Assembly: GCF_009674725.1 (NCBI RefSeq)
Contig: NZ_WKKH01000001.1
Span: 62,001-126,000, forward strand
DNA: 64,000 nt
Direction of reading: 5' to 3'
Origin: Pedobacter petrophilus
Lineage (GTDB): Bacteria; Bacteroidota; Bacteroidia; Sphingobacteriales; Sphingobacteriaceae
Positions within the stretch are counted from its first letter, which is position 1; each line of letters opens with the position of its first letter. Positions 2,379-41,929 of this stretch are shown here, one piece after another. A program made the position numbers and the translations under genes. The notes beneath the pieces are model-generated. The model was not told the DNA's origin. It did no database searches and saw only the letters and a program-made list of their open reading frames with translations.

Positions 2379-3623
2379 ATGAGAATTAAAAATATAGCAG
2401 CAGCCGTGATGATGCTGATTTGCTTTGCTGGTACAGCAGTTGCACAAAAGACTAAAAGTAAAAAGAATGTGGTGCTGGGCGACAGGCAATTCTGGCTTCA
2501 GCAGATGGATAAAATGGTTCGTCCGGTGATATATAACCTGGCGAAAGACAGCCTTAGGCTTGCAATGCCCAAAGTAACCTCTATCCATGTAGATAATAAA
2601 GACCACCGGATTAAAGTGCAATATGTGGAGGTTTTAGGTCGCGTTTTAAGTGGCATTGCACCCTGGTTACAGCTGGAAGGTGGCGCTCCGGAAGAGGTGG
2701 CTTTGCGGAAACAATATCGTGAATGGGCATTGAGCGGGTTAAAAAATGCGCTTGATTCTAATGCCAAAGATTTTATGACTTTCGATATCGGCGGGCAACA
2801 ACTGGTGGATGCCTCTTACGTGGCCCTTGCCGTAATCCGGGCCCCCTGGTTATGGGAAAATCTGGATCAGAAGAATCAAACTTTACTGATGAAATCTATC
2901 GTAACCACTAGAAGATTCAAACCTGTATTTTCTAACTGGCTGTTGTTTTCGGCAGTGAATGAAGCTTTTCTGGCCAGGTTTGGTTACGATTGGGATCCGA
3001 TGCGTGTAGATTATGCGCTTCAGCAAATGGAGCAATGGTATGTGGGAGATGGCATGTATAGCGACGGTACCTCATTTGCTTACGATTATTACAATAGTTA
3101 TGTGATTCATCCATATCTGGCCGCGTTATCTGAGATTATCGGCAAGAAAACGAATGCCTATAAAGACATGTTCGAAAAGATTAAAAAACGGAACGAGCGT
3201 TATGCAATCATTCAGGAAAGACTAATCAATACTGATGGAACTTATCCTGCAACGGGCCGGTCAATCATCTATCGCGGTGCGGCATTTCACCATTTAGCAG
3301 ACATGGCTTTAAGAAAAGCATTGCCAAAGCAGTTGAGCCCGGAGCAAGTTCGGGGTGCATTAACAGCTGTGATCAGAAAAACTTTGGAAAGCCCGGGTAC
3401 GTATAAAAATGGCTGGTTAACAATCGGTTTATATGGAGACCAGCCGGAGTTAGGAGATTTTTATAATAATCAGGGTAGTCCTTATATCGCTTCTAATATT
3501 TTTTTACCTTTAGGTTTGCCAGCCACTGACCCTTTTTGGGCAAATCCACCGGCAAAGTGGAGCGCACAAAAAATATGGGGTAGCGAAAATTTCCAAAACG
3601 ACCATAGCGTTAACTTAAAATAA
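2379..3623 (+). CDS. DUF2264 family protein (putative glycosidase)
   Basis: 414 residues with signal peptide (AAAVMMLICFAGTAVAQ). I chose the ATG at 2379, not an upstream in-frame ATG inside the GH105 gene, because it gives a clean signal peptide 10 bases after the GH105 stop. It reads as a DUF2264 alpha-helical barrel throughout, e.g. LSGIAPWLQLEG near the start and SNWLLFSAVNEAFL in the middle. DUF2264 members occur in Bacteroides arabinogalactan loci; I recall, without being able to check, that one founded CAZy family GH154 with beta-glucuronidase activity. That would suit the GH105 next door, but activity here is inference. Confidence 0.8.
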   Translation: MRIKNIAAAVMMLICFAGTAVAQKTKSKKNVVLGDRQFWLQQMDKMVRPVIYNLAKDSLRLAMPKVTSIHVDNKDHRIKVQYVEVLGRVLSGIAPWLQLEGGAPEEVALRKQYREWALSGLKNALDSNAKDFMTFDIGGQQLVDASYVALAVIRAPWLWENLDQKNQTLLMKSIVTTRRFKPVFSNWLLFSAVNEAFLARFGYDWDPMRVDYALQQMEQWYVGDGMYSDGTSFAYDYYNSYVIHPYLAALSEIIGKKTNAYKDMFEKIKKRNERYAIIQERLINTDGTYPATGRSIIYRGAAFHHLADMALRKALPKQLSPEQVRGALTAVIRKTLESPGTYKNGWLTIGLYGDQPELGDFYNNQGSPYIASNIFLPLGLPATDPFWANPPAKWSAQKIWGSENFQNDHSVNLK

Positions 3624-3671
3624 AATCCTGCGATCATATTTAATCGTCCTTTAACCTAACCTACAAAAAAT

Positions 3672-4790
3672 ATGAAAAGAAAGTTCAGTTTTTTCTTCTG
3701 TTTATTAGTGACTTTACTGTCAGCACAGCAGCTTGTTTTAGCGCAGCAAAAATATACTTCTTTTACGCCAGGCAAAATCTGGAAAGATGATAAAGGCGTT
3801 CATATTAATGCCCACGGCGGTGGCATAGTGGAATATAAAGGAACTTATTATTGGTTTGGCGAACATAAAGTTGAAGGTGGAAAAGGAAATACAGCGCAGG
3901 TTGGCGTGCACTGCTACTCCTCAAAAGACCTTTACAACTGGAAAGATGAGGGGATCTCTTTAGCTGTTTCGGATGATTTAAAAAGCGACATTGCAAAAGG
4001 ATGTATCCTGGAAAGACCTAAAGTAGTTTATAATAAAAAAACCAAAAAATTTGTCATGTGGTTCCACCTGGAATTGCTGGGCAAAAGTTATGAAGCCGCC
4101 AGAGCTGGTGTTGCCGTAGCAGATAAACCTACCGGACCGTATACTTTTATTAAAAGCTACCGGCCAAACGCAGGCAAAATGCCTTTTTATGCTGAAGGTA
4201 CCCCGGATGCTGAAAAAGTGAATTGTGAAAAGCCTGCAAATAAAAGTGATGGTTTCTTTTGCAGAGATTTGCCAGGCGGACAAATGGCGAGAGACATGAC
4301 GGTTTTTGTGGATGACGATGGAAAAGCTTATCATGTATTTTCCTCTGAAGAAAACTTTACGCTTCACCTGGCCGAGTTATCACCTGATTATTTAAGCCAT
4401 ACGGGTAAATTCATCAGGATTTATGTTGGTCAGCAAACCGAAGCACCTGCTTTGTTTAAGAAAAATGGCATTTATTATATGGTGGGTTCTGGTTGTACAG
4501 GCTGGGCACCTAACCCTGCAAGGTGGTTCAAAGCCACGTCCATCTGGGGGCCATGGACTTTTATGGGCAACCCTTGCGAGGGACCAGGTGCAAATATCAC
4601 TTACGGCGGACAGAGTACGCATGTTCTTCCAGCGCCTGGAAAAAAAGGTGAATTTATTTTCATGGCCGATAAATGGGAGCCGAAAAATGCCATTGATGGT
4701 CGTTACCTGTGGCTACCGATTAAGTTTGAAGGAGAGAAAATCAAAATCAACTGGCAGGATGAGTGGGATTTAAATACGTTTGATAAGTAA
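3672..4790 (+). CDS. GH43-like beta-propeller enzyme of the AHGGG type
   Basis: 372 residues with a signal peptide (to about residue 25, LVLAQ). Beta-propeller glycosidase of the GH43 clan. The first strand reads INAHGGGIVEYKGTYYW: where most GH43 enzymes have the base Asp, this group has His48 within AHGGG, as in exo-beta-1,3-galactanases, in which the usual base is known to be missing. Asp208 (ARDMTVFVDDDG) and the putative acid Glu257 (TEAPALF) are present. It is the last enzyme before the repeat-rich gap. Candidate roles are exo-galactanase or related galactosidase; the subfamily (24 or 34) should be settled by alignment. Confidence 0.78.
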   Translation: MKRKFSFFFCLLVTLLSAQQLVLAQQKYTSFTPGKIWKDDKGVHINAHGGGIVEYKGTYYWFGEHKVEGGKGNTAQVGVHCYSSKDLYNWKDEGISLAVSDDLKSDIAKGCILERPKVVYNKKTKKFVMWFHLELLGKSYEAARAGVAVADKPTGPYTFIKSYRPNAGKMPFYAEGTPDAEKVNCEKPANKSDGFFCRDLPGGQMARDMTVFVDDDGKAYHVFSSEENFTLHLAELSPDYLSHTGKFIRIYVGQQTEAPALFKKNGIYYMVGSGCTGWAPNPARWFKATSIWGPWTFMGNPCEGPGANITYGGQSTHVLPAPGKKGEFIFMADKWEPKNAIDGRYLWLPIKFEGEKIKINWQDEWDLNTFDK

Positions 4791-4816: not shown

Positions 4817-5089
4817 GGTCCTAATCAGCCTAATCGGCGCCTTTCCTTTGAAAGGGACAGGCTATAGAGAAAAGCATTGATTACAGCTAGAGAGTTAAAA
4901 TAGTTCAGCGAGGAATGAAGGCGGCGGATAGAAACGCAGGGATTCTTCGCTGCACTCTGAATAATAAATTCTTGTATACTTTAAACTCAAAAGCTCCTCA
5001 TTGCGAGGAGGTACGACGAAGCAATCTAATTTCAAGATTCTTCAATGGAGATTGCTTCAGCAGATGAAGAATCTGCTTCGCAATGACGA
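4817..5089. repeat. Interspersed repeat modules with nested inverted repeat
   Basis: No gene is seen here. Three modules occur in order: a block near 4817-4860 resembling 6408-6458 and 40229-40276; a short word near 4928-4948 (TAGAAACGCAGGGATTCTT) repeated at 6502-6520; and a palindromic block at 4998-5089. The last has outer arms CATTGCG/CGCAATG and inner arms GAAGCAATCT/AGATTGCTTC and GATTCTTC/GAAGAATC. The two inner pairs interleave. A diverged copy of its right half lies at 6513-6566. The outline resembles the small palindromic repeats common between genes in Bacteroidota. Confidence 0.7.
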
Positions 5090-6405
5090 TTTTTCGCATA
5101 ATGAACAGGTCCTGAATCAAGTTCAGGAAGACGACCGTTTTAACCCACCGCTCATGCAATCGCGAAAAACCATATTTACATTCAATAACCTCATAGATCT
5201 GATGAAGCACCTCACTATTTCCATCTTGCTATCACCACCCTGCTGTCCGGCCTGGGAAATGATGGAAGGAGAAAACGTTTAAAGCTTAAACCACAATCTT
5301 TCAACCCACCACAACCCAAGGCAGCGCGTTTTGCCCGATCCTTCATCGGGTGCTTGTGCTGCCGAAACAAAGCTTAACGATTTTATCCGACATCAGTTCC
5401 AAGCCTTGATTGTTTGCTTCTTTATTATCAAGAATAAAGAAGATAGCCCTTCAGCGGCCAGCCGAGGCAAGCCAGCGCAGCAGCCAAATGATTGATAAGC
5501 CACAACAAAATAGATTACTTCACGCTTTCACTCAACCTCCACTTCAGTTCGCAAGGATGATTTTTCGCATAAGGAACAGGTCCTGAATCAAGTTCAGAAT
5601 GACGACCACTTTAACCCACCGTTCATGCAATGGCAAAAAAACTTATAGTGTAAAGAAACCCATCTAAGCACCTGCTATTAACATCTTGCTATCACCACCC
5701 TGCTACCTAGCCTAGGAAATGATGGAAGGAGAAAACGTTTAAAGCTTAAACCACAATCTTTCATTACCTCACAACCCGAGGCAGCGCGTTTTGCCCGATT
5801 TTTCATCGGGTGCTTGTGCTGCCGAAACAAAGCTTTAACGAATTTATCCGACATCAGTTTCAAGCCTTGAGTTTTGCTTCTTTTTGTCAAGAAAAAGAAG
5901 ACAGCCATTCGGCGGCCAGCCGAGGCAAGCCAGCGCAGCAGCCAAATGATTGATAAGCCACAACAAGATAGATTGCTTCACGCCCTCCCTCAACCCCAAC
6001 TTCAGTTCGCAAGGGCGATTTTTCGCATAAGGAACAGGTCCTGAATCAAGTTCAGGAAGACGAGCGTTTTAACCACCGCTCATGCAATGGCAAAAAAACC
6101 TATAGTGTAAAGAAACCCATCTAAGCACCTGCTATTAACATCTTGCTATCACCACCCTGCTGTCCGGCCTGGGGAATGATGGAAGGAGAAAACGTTTAAA
6201 GCTTAAACCACAATCTTTTAACCCACCACAACCCAAGGCAGCGCGTTTTGCCCGATCCTTCATCGGGTGCTTGTGCTGCCGAAACAAAGCTTTAACGAAT
6301 TTATCCAACATCAGTTCCAAGCCTTGATTGTTCGCTTCTTTATTATCAAGAAAAAGAAGATAGCCCTTCGGCGGCCAGCCGGGGCAAGCCAAGCGTAGTT
6401 GGAAA
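5080..6405 (-). repeat. Three tandem copies of a ~460-bp repeat with conserved hairpin
   Basis: Copies begin at about 5080, 5551 and 6009 (steps of 471 and 458 bp) and are near-identical over long blocks, for example the block with ATGATGGAAGGAGAAAACG and the block containing GGCAGCGCG. Each copy holds a nested hairpin: outer arms GGCAGCGC/GTGCTGCC around inner arms CCCGAT/ATCGGG. The - strand shows short open frames of 76 and 97 codons in copies 2 and 3, but copy 1 lacks one base (AAGCTTAACG against AAGCTTTAACG), which breaks the frame, so I do not call a protein. A fourth copy lies at about 40335-40655 and a remnant at about 18826-18890. Orientation is given as the strand of the short open frames. 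Confidence 0.85.
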
Positions 6406-18740: not shown

Positions 18741-18825
18741 TATTTAAAGGCGTGGCCCAAAAGTGATAAAACCGGGCTTTTTAGTGAGCTCATGAATACA
18801 ATTAAAAACATAAACAACGGCTAAA

Positions 18826-18890
18826 TAACTCAAGGCTAGGATCTGATGTCTGATAAATTCGTTAAAGCTTTTAGTTCGCCAGCCACTTTC
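18826..18890 (+). repeat. Degenerate remnant of the 460-bp dispersed repeat
   Basis: On the + strand, CAAGGCTAGGATCTGATG, then TGATAAATTCGTTAAAGCTTT and a vestige of the hairpin region match the reverse complement of the repeat at 5080-6405. It is in the opposite orientation and the hairpin is largely lost. The 264-bp gap after the GH127 gene holds no gene. Confidence 0.6.
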
Positions 18891-18954
18891 CCGATCTACA
18901 GAAAATCTAAGGCTAATCAACTCCGGGTACAAATAAAACAACCATGAAAAAAAT

Positions 18955-38967: not shown

Positions 38968-40161
38968 ATGAATTATAAATTTTGGCAGAAGAAAACCGAT
39001 GCCACTAAAAAGAAAAAGACAAAAACCCGCGAATGGGTTGATGCAATCGTCTTCGCGGTAGTAGCAGCAACCATTATTCGCGTTTTCTTTATTGAGGCTT
39101 ATACCATTCCATCTGGTTCGATGGAGCGTTCGTTATTAATTGGCGATTTTCTTTTTGTGAGTAAGGTGAATTACGGTGCGAGGATCCCGATGACTCCTGT
39201 TGCCTTTCCTTTCGCTCATCATACCATGCCATTAACAACCTCCACAAAAGCATATTGGGATGGCGTACAATGGAAATATCATCGTTTACCGGGTTTATCA
39301 GATATTAAAAGAAACGATGTAGTAGTGTTTAACTTTCCCGAGGGAGACACTGTTGCTGTTGAAAATCAAGCGGCAAGTTATTATGACCTGGTGAGAATGA
39401 GCGGCAGGGAGCAAGTGAGAAATACTTATACCATCATCGACAGACCTGTTGATAAGCGGGAAAATTACATTAAAAGATGTATCGGTATTGCCGGAGACGT
39501 AGTTTCTATGTCTGCCGGAGTGGTAAGTGTAAATGGCAAACCTGAGCCCATAAAAAGCACAGGTATGATGCCTTATCGTATTGAATTTAAAACGATGGAT
39601 TTCAACTATGCTGCGCTTGATGAATACAAGCTGGATTTAGGAAATAGTCCTGCGGTTGCAGCAAACACTTATGTGGTGAATGCTTCGCCGGAAATTGTAG
39701 AAAAACTTAAAACACTGGATTTCGTGAAATCAGTGGTGATGAATCCTGATCCTGCAGGCGAAGAAGCAGGAGGCATGTTTCCACACGACCCGAAAAGAGT
39801 ATGGAACAGAGATAACTTCGGGCCAATCAAAATCCCTGCTAAAGGCTGGACGGTAAATATCGATAGCAACACCATGCCGCTTTACTATAGGGCAATCAGA
39901 ACTTACGAAGGTAATAAGGTAGAGCAAAAGGGTGGTGTTTGGTATATCAACGATAAAGTGGCTACCAATTACACCTTTAAAATGAATTATTATTGGATGA
40001 TGGGTGATAACCGCCATAACTCTGCAGATTCACGTTACTGGGGTTTTGTTCCGGAAGACCATGTAGTGGGGAAAGCCTTATTTATCTGGATGAGTTTCGA
40101 CGGGGAAGGTTCTTTCTTCAATAAGATTCGTTGGAACAGATTATTTAGAGGAATACACTAG
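38968..40161 (+). CDS. lepB: Signal peptidase I, copy 1
   Basis: 397 residues. Membrane Ser/Lys protease that removes Sec signal peptides on the outer face of the inner membrane. A Lys-rich cytoplasmic N-terminus, one membrane segment at about 24-43, then Ser51 in IPSGSMERSLLIGDFLF and Lys169 in KRENYIKRCIGIAGDVV. The last box is MMGDNRHNSADSRYWGFVPEDHVVGKA. A long insert (about 185-300) before that box is normal in Bacteroidota. A close paralogue lies 580 bp downstream. Confidence 0.93.
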   Translation: MNYKFWQKKTDATKKKKTKTREWVDAIVFAVVAATIIRVFFIEAYTIPSGSMERSLLIGDFLFVSKVNYGARIPMTPVAFPFAHHTMPLTTSTKAYWDGVQWKYHRLPGLSDIKRNDVVVFNFPEGDTVAVENQAASYYDLVRMSGREQVRNTYTIIDRPVDKRENYIKRCIGIAGDVVSMSAGVVSVNGKPEPIKSTGMMPYRIEFKTMDFNYAALDEYKLDLGNSPAVAANTYVVNASPEIVEKLKTLDFVKSVVMNPDPAGEEAGGMFPHDPKRVWNRDNFGPIKIPAKGWTVNIDSNTMPLYYRAIRTYEGNKVEQKGGVWYINDKVATNYTFKMNYYWMMGDNRHNSADSRYWGFVPEDHVVGKALFIWMSFDGEGSFFNKIRWNRLFRGIH

Positions 40162-40183
40162 CAATAAATATAAAACATATATG

Positions 40184-40215
40184 AAGCGCGCTGATCTAAT
40201 CAGGGCGCTTTTTTT
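40184..40215 (+). terminator. Intrinsic terminator after first lepB
   Basis: Arms AAGCGC/GCGCTT and CTGAT/ATCAG separated by a G-G mismatch, loop CTA, then seven T after the stem. Confidence 0.85.
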
Positions 40216-40228
40216 GTTGCAAAACAGC

Positions 40229-40655
40229 CCCTATCTGCCTATCGACACCTTTCCCCCGGGAGGAGAAAGGGCGTGTAATAAAGATTTTTTGTGGCAAGCG
40301 ATTTAAAAATTTGGTTCTAAAGACAACTATAAAATGTAAGGATCCATCATGCCTCAAGATAACGACCGTTTTAACACACCTATTATAACATCATGTATTT
40401 TGAACTTTGCTATTGCCGCCCTGCTCTCCGGCCTAGCAAATGATGGAAGGAGAAAACGTTAAAGCTTCAACCACAATTTTTCATACCCCCACAACACAAG
40501 GCAGCGCGTATTGCCCGATTTTTCATCGGGTGCTTGCGCTGCCGAAATAAAGCTTTCACGAATTTATCCGAGATCAGTTCCAAGCCTTGATTTTTGCTTC
40601 TTTTCATCTAAGGAAAAGAAGAAAGTCCTTCGGCGGCCAGCCGAGGAGAGCCAGT
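40229..40655 (-). repeat. Fourth copy of the 460-bp repeat, between the two lepB genes
   Basis: 40229-40276 matches the flanking module at 4817-4860 and 6408-6458. From about 40335 the sequence follows the repeat of 5080-6405, better from 40420. Its hairpin outer arm is GGCAGCGC/GCGCTGCC: perfect here, while the other copies have one G-T pair. One base is missing within AACGTTAAAGC, so the short - strand frame is broken. Same orientation as the tandem copies. The rest of 40216-40741 has no gene. Confidence 0.8.
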
Positions 40656-40741
40656 GAAGTAGGAAAAAACCATTATTATAACCCGATATGTAACAATCAA
40701 ACTTTCTCTCAATCTAAAATCCAATATTATCAATCTTCATT

Positions 40742-41929
40742 ATGAACTGGAAAATCTGGAAAAAGAAAAGCGATCTTAAAAAGAAAAAAACAAAAACCCG
40801 CGAATGGATAGACGCAGTTGTTTTCGCGGTGATTGCGGCAACAATTATCCGCGTTTTCTTTATAGAAGCTTATACCATTCCATCAGGCTCAATGGAAAAG
40901 TCGCTCCTAATCGGCGATTTTCTTTTTGTCAGTAAAGTGAATTATGGTGCCCGGATTCCGATGACGCCTGTCGCCTTTCCTTTTGCACACCACACCATGC
41001 CCATCACCGGAACAAAATCATATTGGGATGGTATTCAATGGAAGTATCGCCGTTTACCTGGCCTGTCAGAAATTAAAAGGAATGATATCGTTGTTTTTAA
41101 TCTGCCAGTCGGAGATACCGTCGCGCTTGAAAATCAGGAGCCAAGTTATTATAACTTGGTTCGTCAGTCTGATTGGAAAACGGTGAATAGCCAATATACT
41201 GTGAGCAGCAGGCCGGTGGATAAACGGGAAAACATTATTAAAAGGTGTATCGGAATTCCTGGCGATGTTATCAGGATGAGCGGTGGCGTGGTGAGTGTAA
41301 ACGGAAAAGCAGAACCCCTGAAAAATACCGGTCAGATGCCTTACAAAATCCAGTTATCCACTACCAATATTAACTTCGATGTGTTTAATAATCTCGGATT
41401 TAAGGTTGGAGAGATGCAACAGCTTGATGCGAATACTTATGTTGCAAACGCCACGCCGGAAATGGTTCATAAATTAAAAACCTTCGACTTCGTAAAATCA
41501 GTTGATTTATTTGTGAAGCCATCTTCAGCTGATGATGGCGATCTCTTCCCTCTTGATCCTAACCGCAAATGGAATGTAGATAATTTCGGGCCGGTCAAAA
41601 TCCCGGCAAAAGGCTGGACCGTAAAAATAGATAGTACTACGATGCCACTTTATTACAGGGCCATCAGAACTTACGAAGGTAATAATGTAGAACAAAAGGA
41701 TGGTATTTGGTATATTAATAACCGGGTGGCTGCCAATTATACTTTCAAAATGAATTACTACTGGATGATGGGTGATAACCGCCATAATTCTACAGATTCG
41801 CGCTATTGGGGTTTCGTTCCCGAAGATCACGTAGTTGGAAAGGCGTTGTTTATCTGGATGAGTTTTGATAGTGAAGGTTCTTTCTTCAATAAGATTCGCT
41901 GGAATAGGCTGTTACGGGGAATACATTAA
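40742..41929 (+). CDS. lepB: Signal peptidase I, copy 2
   Basis: 395 residues, strongly similar to copy 1 from end to end. Ser50 in IPSGSMEKSLLIGDFLF and Lys167 in KRENIIKRCIGIPGDVI are intact, as is MMGDNRHNSTDSRYWGF, so both copies should be active. The main differences lie in the insert at about 190-260, which may tune substrate choice. Placed alone between the dispersed repeat and a strong terminator, so it is expressed separately from copy 1. Confidence 0.92.
   Translation: MNWKIWKKKSDLKKKKTKTREWIDAVVFAVIAATIIRVFFIEAYTIPSGSMEKSLLIGDFLFVSKVNYGARIPMTPVAFPFAHHTMPITGTKSYWDGIQWKYRRLPGLSEIKRNDIVVFNLPVGDTVALENQEPSYYNLVRQSDWKTVNSQYTVSSRPVDKRENIIKRCIGIPGDVIRMSGGVVSVNGKAEPLKNTGQMPYKIQLSTTNINFDVFNNLGFKVGEMQQLDANTYVANATPEMVHKLKTFDFVKSVDLFVKPSSADDGDLFPLDPNRKWNVDNFGPVKIPAKGWTVKIDSTTMPLYYRAIRTYEGNNVEQKDGIWYINNRVAANYTFKMNYYWMMGDNRHNSTDSRYWGFVPEDHVVGKALFIWMSFDSEGSFFNKIRWNRLLRGIH

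Follow-up and report, generated by a model that had tools for sequence, protein, structure and literature searches.

A dispersed intergenic repeat of Pedobacter with a covarying fold and a 3′ module that recurs in the Bacteroidia

REPIN/RAYT systems consist of non-autonomous structured repeats that are amplified within a lineage, whereas BOX, ERIC and MITE-type repeats are modular, structured intergenic sequences of 100–300 bp. Folded sites are also found head-to-tail in integron attC arrays, and a structured motif of Pedobacter is known as the Pedo-repair RNA motif. The name of the latter motif appears in PMC2864571. The definition of REPs used here, as CGTC-tagged palindromic repeats, is that of a 2013 paper (PMC3733652). 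The element described below was studied in a 64,000-nt stretch of Pedobacter petrophilus DNA (the window); it belongs to the kind of structured intergenic repeats, and its assignment to a known family fails on the features tested.

An initial annotation of the window had proposed three tandem copies of a 460-bp repeat, a fourth copy at about 40335–40655 and a reversed remnant at about 18826–18890. All of these were recovered: the tandem units begin at positions 5077, 5548 and 6006 (spacings of 471 and 458), the fourth copy lies at 40407–40662 with 86 % identity, and the remnant was located by BLAST and extended by the profile (Table 1). BLAST E values between copies inside the window were as low as 0, so that the repetition greatly exceeds what chance would give. 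The repeat unit, however, had been drawn too long, the conserved part being a core of ca. 255–265 bp and the remainder of each 460-bp unit a spacer with CGTC-REP-like palindromes that joins consecutive cores. Alignment of 216 left ends and 196 right ends placed the conserved borders about 8 bases ahead of TGCTATCTGCACC and about 9 bases past GGCAAGCCnGnGC, respectively. The remnant adjoins a variant module, GAGCTCATGAATRCAA..., which also occurs within other copies. The own genome, a 5.47 Mb draft, gave 73 BLAST matches and, in the profile search, 51 matching pieces, ca. 30 of them near-complete core copies; many copies are situated at contig ends.

Table 1. Positions of the repeat, its predicted helices and associated features. 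Coordinates without a locus prefix are those of the window.
Feature	Position	Strand	Basis or remark
REP-bearing part of first tandem unit, 5′ of copy 1	5077..5226	no strand	sequence
Core copy 1	5227..5481	+	profile match, model positions 1-255
Spacer between copies 1 and 2, CGTC-REP-like palindromes	5482..5686	no strand	sequence and REP definition (PMC3733652)
Core copy 2 (reference)	5687..5939	+	profile; in 57-sequence alignment
P1 of copy 2	5709..5866	+	covariation counts; GGC/GCC-type closing pairs (here AGC/GCC), conserved internal loops
Apical hairpin of P1 (hairpin of the initial annotation)	5780..5823	+	sequence, covariation
Segment complementary to P2 loop	5866..5871	+	CTTGA here; CTTGAT in most copies
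P2, AT-rich hairpin	5877..5900	+	loop GTCAAG at 5886-5891; covariation
P3, GC hairpin CGGCGGCCAGCCG	5906..5925	+	covariation
Spacer between copies 2 and 3, CGTC-REP-like palindromes	5940..6143	no strand	sequence and REP definition (PMC3733652)
Core copy 3	6144..6396	+	profile match
Reversed shortened remnant (model 119-192)	18822..18895	-	BLAST gave 18827-18871, profile extended
Core copy 4, flanked by two signal peptidase I genes	40408..40659	+	BLAST, profile
Family B copies	L215-L234		ends TTGACGT/ACGTCA, could close a stem
Recurring 272-aa and 434-aa proteins	L111:4107-4925, L112:1605-2909, L117:11391-12209 and 2781-4076		

The secondary structure was predicted from one window copy alone and then scored on 57 diverse copies (alignment A1). 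Its first element from the 5′ side is P1, a long and irregular hairpin. Next comes a stretch with complementarity to the loop of P2, and the AT-rich hairpin P2 and the GC hairpin P3 follow in that order. The nested hairpin GGCAGCGC...GTGCTGCC noticed in the initial annotation is present, as is the change of a G-T pair to G-C in the fourth copy, but its extent was too narrow, since it is merely the apical part of P1. In the 57 copies, 86.1 % of the cells were paired, with two-sided changes at 41 of the 72 pairs (311 such cells). None of 500 shuffles reached the paired fraction, the number of two-sided pairs or that of two-sided cells, and pairing fell to 37–48 % when the partner was moved by 1–3 columns. 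For the consensus structure the paired fraction was 93.2 %, and the purine-rich mismatched internal loops of P1 are conserved. A tree-based null over all column pairs left E < 0.05 for two pairs only, the majority of the top-ranked pairs falling inside predicted helices; because this null is harsh, we relied instead on the structure-given counts with their shuffle and slide controls.

The six-base loop of P2, ATCAAG, is complementary to a CTTGAT situated shortly 5′, and both covary (variants CTTGAAC/TTCAAG, CTTGG/CCAAG and GGTGT/ACAC). On the + strand, the P2 stem and the loop-upstream pairing are mutually exclusive in ordinary pseudoknot geometry, because the 3′ arm follows the loop without a base to spare; a pseudoknot would be more feasible on the - strand, by way of an A-rich spacer. 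As judged from the aligned copies, the covariation indicates that a folded nucleic acid, RNA or single-stranded DNA, is under selection and that its shape is kept.

This agrees with the earlier proposal that selection acts on nucleic-acid structure and not on a protein, and neither of the two outcomes set beforehand as refuting it was observed, that is, a 60-codon frame conserved as protein or a lack of covariation. Across 104 copies there was no conserved - strand reading frame: starting from the conserved ATG of that strand, the median open stretch was only 30 codons, and two conserved motifs stood in random phase to each other, with all three values occupied. Coding on the - strand was thus rejected. 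That the core might be a decayed - strand protein-coding gene, of which the short open frames of some copies would be remnants, appears almost inconceivable given the loss of the frame and the random motif phase in the same 104 copies.

The core also forms intergenic clusters in related species. By our ORF criterion, no copy in 81 clusters lay within a gene, and 47 of the 48 multi-copy clusters were arranged head-to-tail in one orientation. Flanking genes were oriented ++ in 28 clusters, +- in 23, -- in 19 and -+ in 11. The gene upstream was codirectional in 51 of the 81 clusters (p = 0.026) and, adding class-level loci, in 67 of 107 (p = 0.012), which is a weak effect because the loci are partly orthologous. 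No flanking promoter or terminator was conserved in the aligned copy ends. Copies in the window occupy intergenic gaps by a GH43 gene, a SusC/SusD pair and two signal peptidase genes, without a transposase beside them, as the initial annotation had stated for this dispersed element. The signal peptidase I genes (Peptidase_S26) on either side of the fourth copy, at 38968–41929, are neighbours that have diverged from each other.

At one conserved locus, from a TolC-type gene to nhaA, arrays in genomes G284 and G173 (L111, L112, L113 and L114) bracket variable islands containing type I restriction-modification, TIR (ThsB-like), GmrSD-type and KAP-like NTPase genes, and these arrays may serve as points of entry for recombination. 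Two array-flanked islands of G284 have in common two proteins, of 272 and 434 aa, for which Pfam gave no match.

Within the genus, matches were obtained in 41 genomes, ca. 31 of them strong, and the 53 stretches retrieved from public species genomes with a 27-base element pattern were every one from Pedobacter. Of 145 copies, 75 had their nearest neighbour in the same genome, whereas chance would give 5.6 %; copies thus group by genome, and amplification is lineage-specific. Three pairs of close species carry a copy at the same locus in both members, and in four species an array occupies the identical place beside the TolC-type gene and nhaA. As close species have loci in common, the element moves rarely, and recent jumps were not seen. 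Among the close-species loci compared no target-site duplication and no empty site was seen, and the two ends of the core (family A) form no more than imperfect inverted repeats. Searches of plasmids and described phages with the Pedobacter core gave zero matches. In one copy (L068:1700-1730), otherwise ca. 98 % identical to L056, the P1 arm contains a REP-like palindrome, GATCCTTCGACTACGTTCAGGA, apparently a CGTC-REP insertion that distinguishes two close species.

A second repeat family (B) has P2–P3 in common with the core, but its 5′ body is different, lacking P1, and its ends are sharp. There are ca. 20 scattered single copies, of ca. 300 bases each, on the chromosome of G284. The replication-strand bias of an IS200/IS605-type single-stranded DNA element was not found in these copies, 13 being oriented with the fork and 9 against it (hand count, from the dnaA position). 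A covariance model of P2–P3 gave matches in 98 of 295 Bacteroidia genomes at E ≤ 1e-4 and none on unrelated control loci at E ≤ 0.01, E values that are rough, with a partly AT-rich model, so that weak single matches may be false. In the matches inspected GCCTTGATTTTTTGTTTCTTTTNNATCAAGNNAAAAGAAA is nearly exact and, in most of them, a different long hairpin closes immediately 5′ of it. The neighbours at the class-level loci are ordinary housekeeping genes, with no recurrent transposase or associated gene among those of the loci inspected. Three stretches of a viral collection contain the 3′ module. The largest of them, the phage contig IMGVR_UViG_3300025835_000087 (L309), encodes terminase, capsid, protease and endolysin, and in its late region two sense-oriented copies occupy intergenic gaps between the genes.

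We tentatively propose, with more doubt than confidence, that these are Bacteroidia-wide structured elements not described before, in which a variable long irregular hairpin is followed by the near-invariant GCCTTGATTTTTTGTTTCTTTTNNATCAAGNNAAAAGAAA. The P2 loop would pair upstream, either as a switch or as a - strand A-rich H-type pseudoknot, and the elements, present in about one third of the class and in phages, would persist as RNA or single-stranded DNA that a putative conserved factor recognises. The module sequence was in no text of the literature searched, nor was a paper on the core repeat found.

On balance, we lean towards the core being a structure-dependent, non-autonomous, dispersed (mobile) intergenic repeat, since its patchy occurrence is more in keeping with mobile DNA than with an essential RNA. 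Support also comes from the covarying fold without a coding frame, the arrays of one orientation outside genes, the lineage-specific amplification, and the occurrence of the 3′ module in family B, in other genomes of the class and on a viral contig. The near-invariant 3′ module, as folded DNA or RNA, would be recognised by a putative trans-acting enzyme, belonging to the host or to another mobile element, that occasionally copies the core into new intergenic sites. Once placed, a copy would persist by vertical descent, and arrays could expand and contract by tandem duplication and recombination, including the CGTC-REPs between copies. Read-through transcripts would carry stable hairpins, which probably confines the core to the space between genes, where positions downstream of a codirectional gene are mildly preferred. 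Against mobility, no such enzyme was found, target-site duplications and empty sites were not seen, the loci common to close species gave no recent jump, and family B lacks the strand bias that a lagging-strand transposon would predict. Mobilisation by RAYT/Y1 proteins was rejected, since the flanks of the 13 Y1 loci examined, from the own and related genomes, had no match to the core or the 3′ module. The element is present in G035, where no Y1 gene was detected; Y1 genes are so frequent across the genus that co-occurrence is uninformative. The flanks of the own-genome RAYT-like genes (L052 and L053) hold other repeat families, of the AACGAGTGCA and TCCGGAAA...TTTCCGGA types.

Both readings offered by the initial annotation, mobile element and structured RNA, are retained. 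The core could be a structured RNA of Bacteroidia with a host function (a small RNA, a 3′ UTR element or a ribozyme-like RNA), its tandem copies providing dosage; we regard this as the main rival and a serious one, though less likely than the mobile repeat. The strong covariation beyond controls, a generic feature of structured RNA, is consistent with this possibility, and so are the conserved purine-rich internal loops, the codirectional upstream genes and the sense orientation of both copies between the late genes of the phage contig. It fits less well with the patchy presence, with the dozens of copies, with the lack of conserved promoters or terminators at the flanks and with the absence of a match in Rfam. 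The strand evidence is weak and conflicts between tests. The excess of G.T over A.C cells was 109 to 54, but 67 to 54 after dropping one pair, which is little for an RNA strand, and the P1 of Pedobacter folds slightly better on the - strand, whereas at class-level loci the upstream arm (180 bases) is more stable on the + strand (p = 0.016). The attention paid at first to a - strand transcript was too narrow.

If the core were instead a site of recombination in folded DNA, resembling attC or serving as a hot spot, for the exchange of variable genes, the arrays around the defence islands at the TolC-type/nhaA locus, and the 272-aa and 434-aa proteins carried by two G284 islands, would be readily understood. 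This seems improbable, however, because 80 of the 81 clusters have no gene inside, the stem base lacks integron-like boxes and homologous recombination among the repeats is enough to account for the islands. Still more improbable is that the compensatory changes reflect template-switch correction of palindromes with no selection on structure: P2 is indeed an almost perfect palindrome in which paired changes come in blocks, but the arms of P1 are up to 150 nt apart, its mismatched internal loops are conserved rather than corrected, and the complementarity between the loop and the upstream segment covaries too.

A conserved folded element thus appears to occur in many Bacteroidia genomes and is listed in no RNA or repeat catalogue searched. 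Its short - strand open frames could be annotated as hypothetical proteins, and its arrays coincide with assembly breaks as well as bracketing defence islands in two genomes. Should an enzyme that recognises the 3′ module be found, it would represent a new system of mobilisation; should the folded strand turn out to be RNA, a new structured RNA would be common to the class. The near-invariance of the module offers a simple way of testing both the mobilisation and the RNA reading.

Among the described systems, the Pedo-repair RNA motif is likewise a structured motif of Pedobacter, but no Rfam family reaches threshold on the core: none of 4227 families matched the window at the gathering score, those appearing in the element region at E up to 10 were far below threshold, and the class-level elements had no match. 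Integron attC arrays are similar in their head-to-tail folded sites, and differ in that the core arrays lack both cassette genes and R boxes, neither RYYYAAC nor GTTRRRY being found by eye at the stem base. The core resembles BOX, ERIC and MITE-type repeats in being modular, structured and intergenic; IS-type terminal inverted repeats and target-site duplications were not seen and, in contrast to those repeats, it shows covariation with conserved internal loops and one 3′ module common to the class. REPIN/RAYT systems are also lineage-amplified, non-autonomous and structured, whereas no RAYT gene examined has the core in its flanks, and the core is not a 20–40 bp hairpin with a GTAG tag, with no GTAG at its ends. 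Finally, CGTC-REPs (PMC3733652) are dispersed palindromic intergenic repeats that also occur in Bacteroidetes, many of them 3′ of genes and with no dedicated transposase known. A CGTC-tagged hairpin with an 8–9 bp stem was not found in the core, although the spacers resemble one. CGTC-REPs are single hairpins of 20–40 bp that favour inverted dimers, whereas the core spans ca. 255 bp and combines three helices with a conserved 3′ module in head-to-tail arrays.
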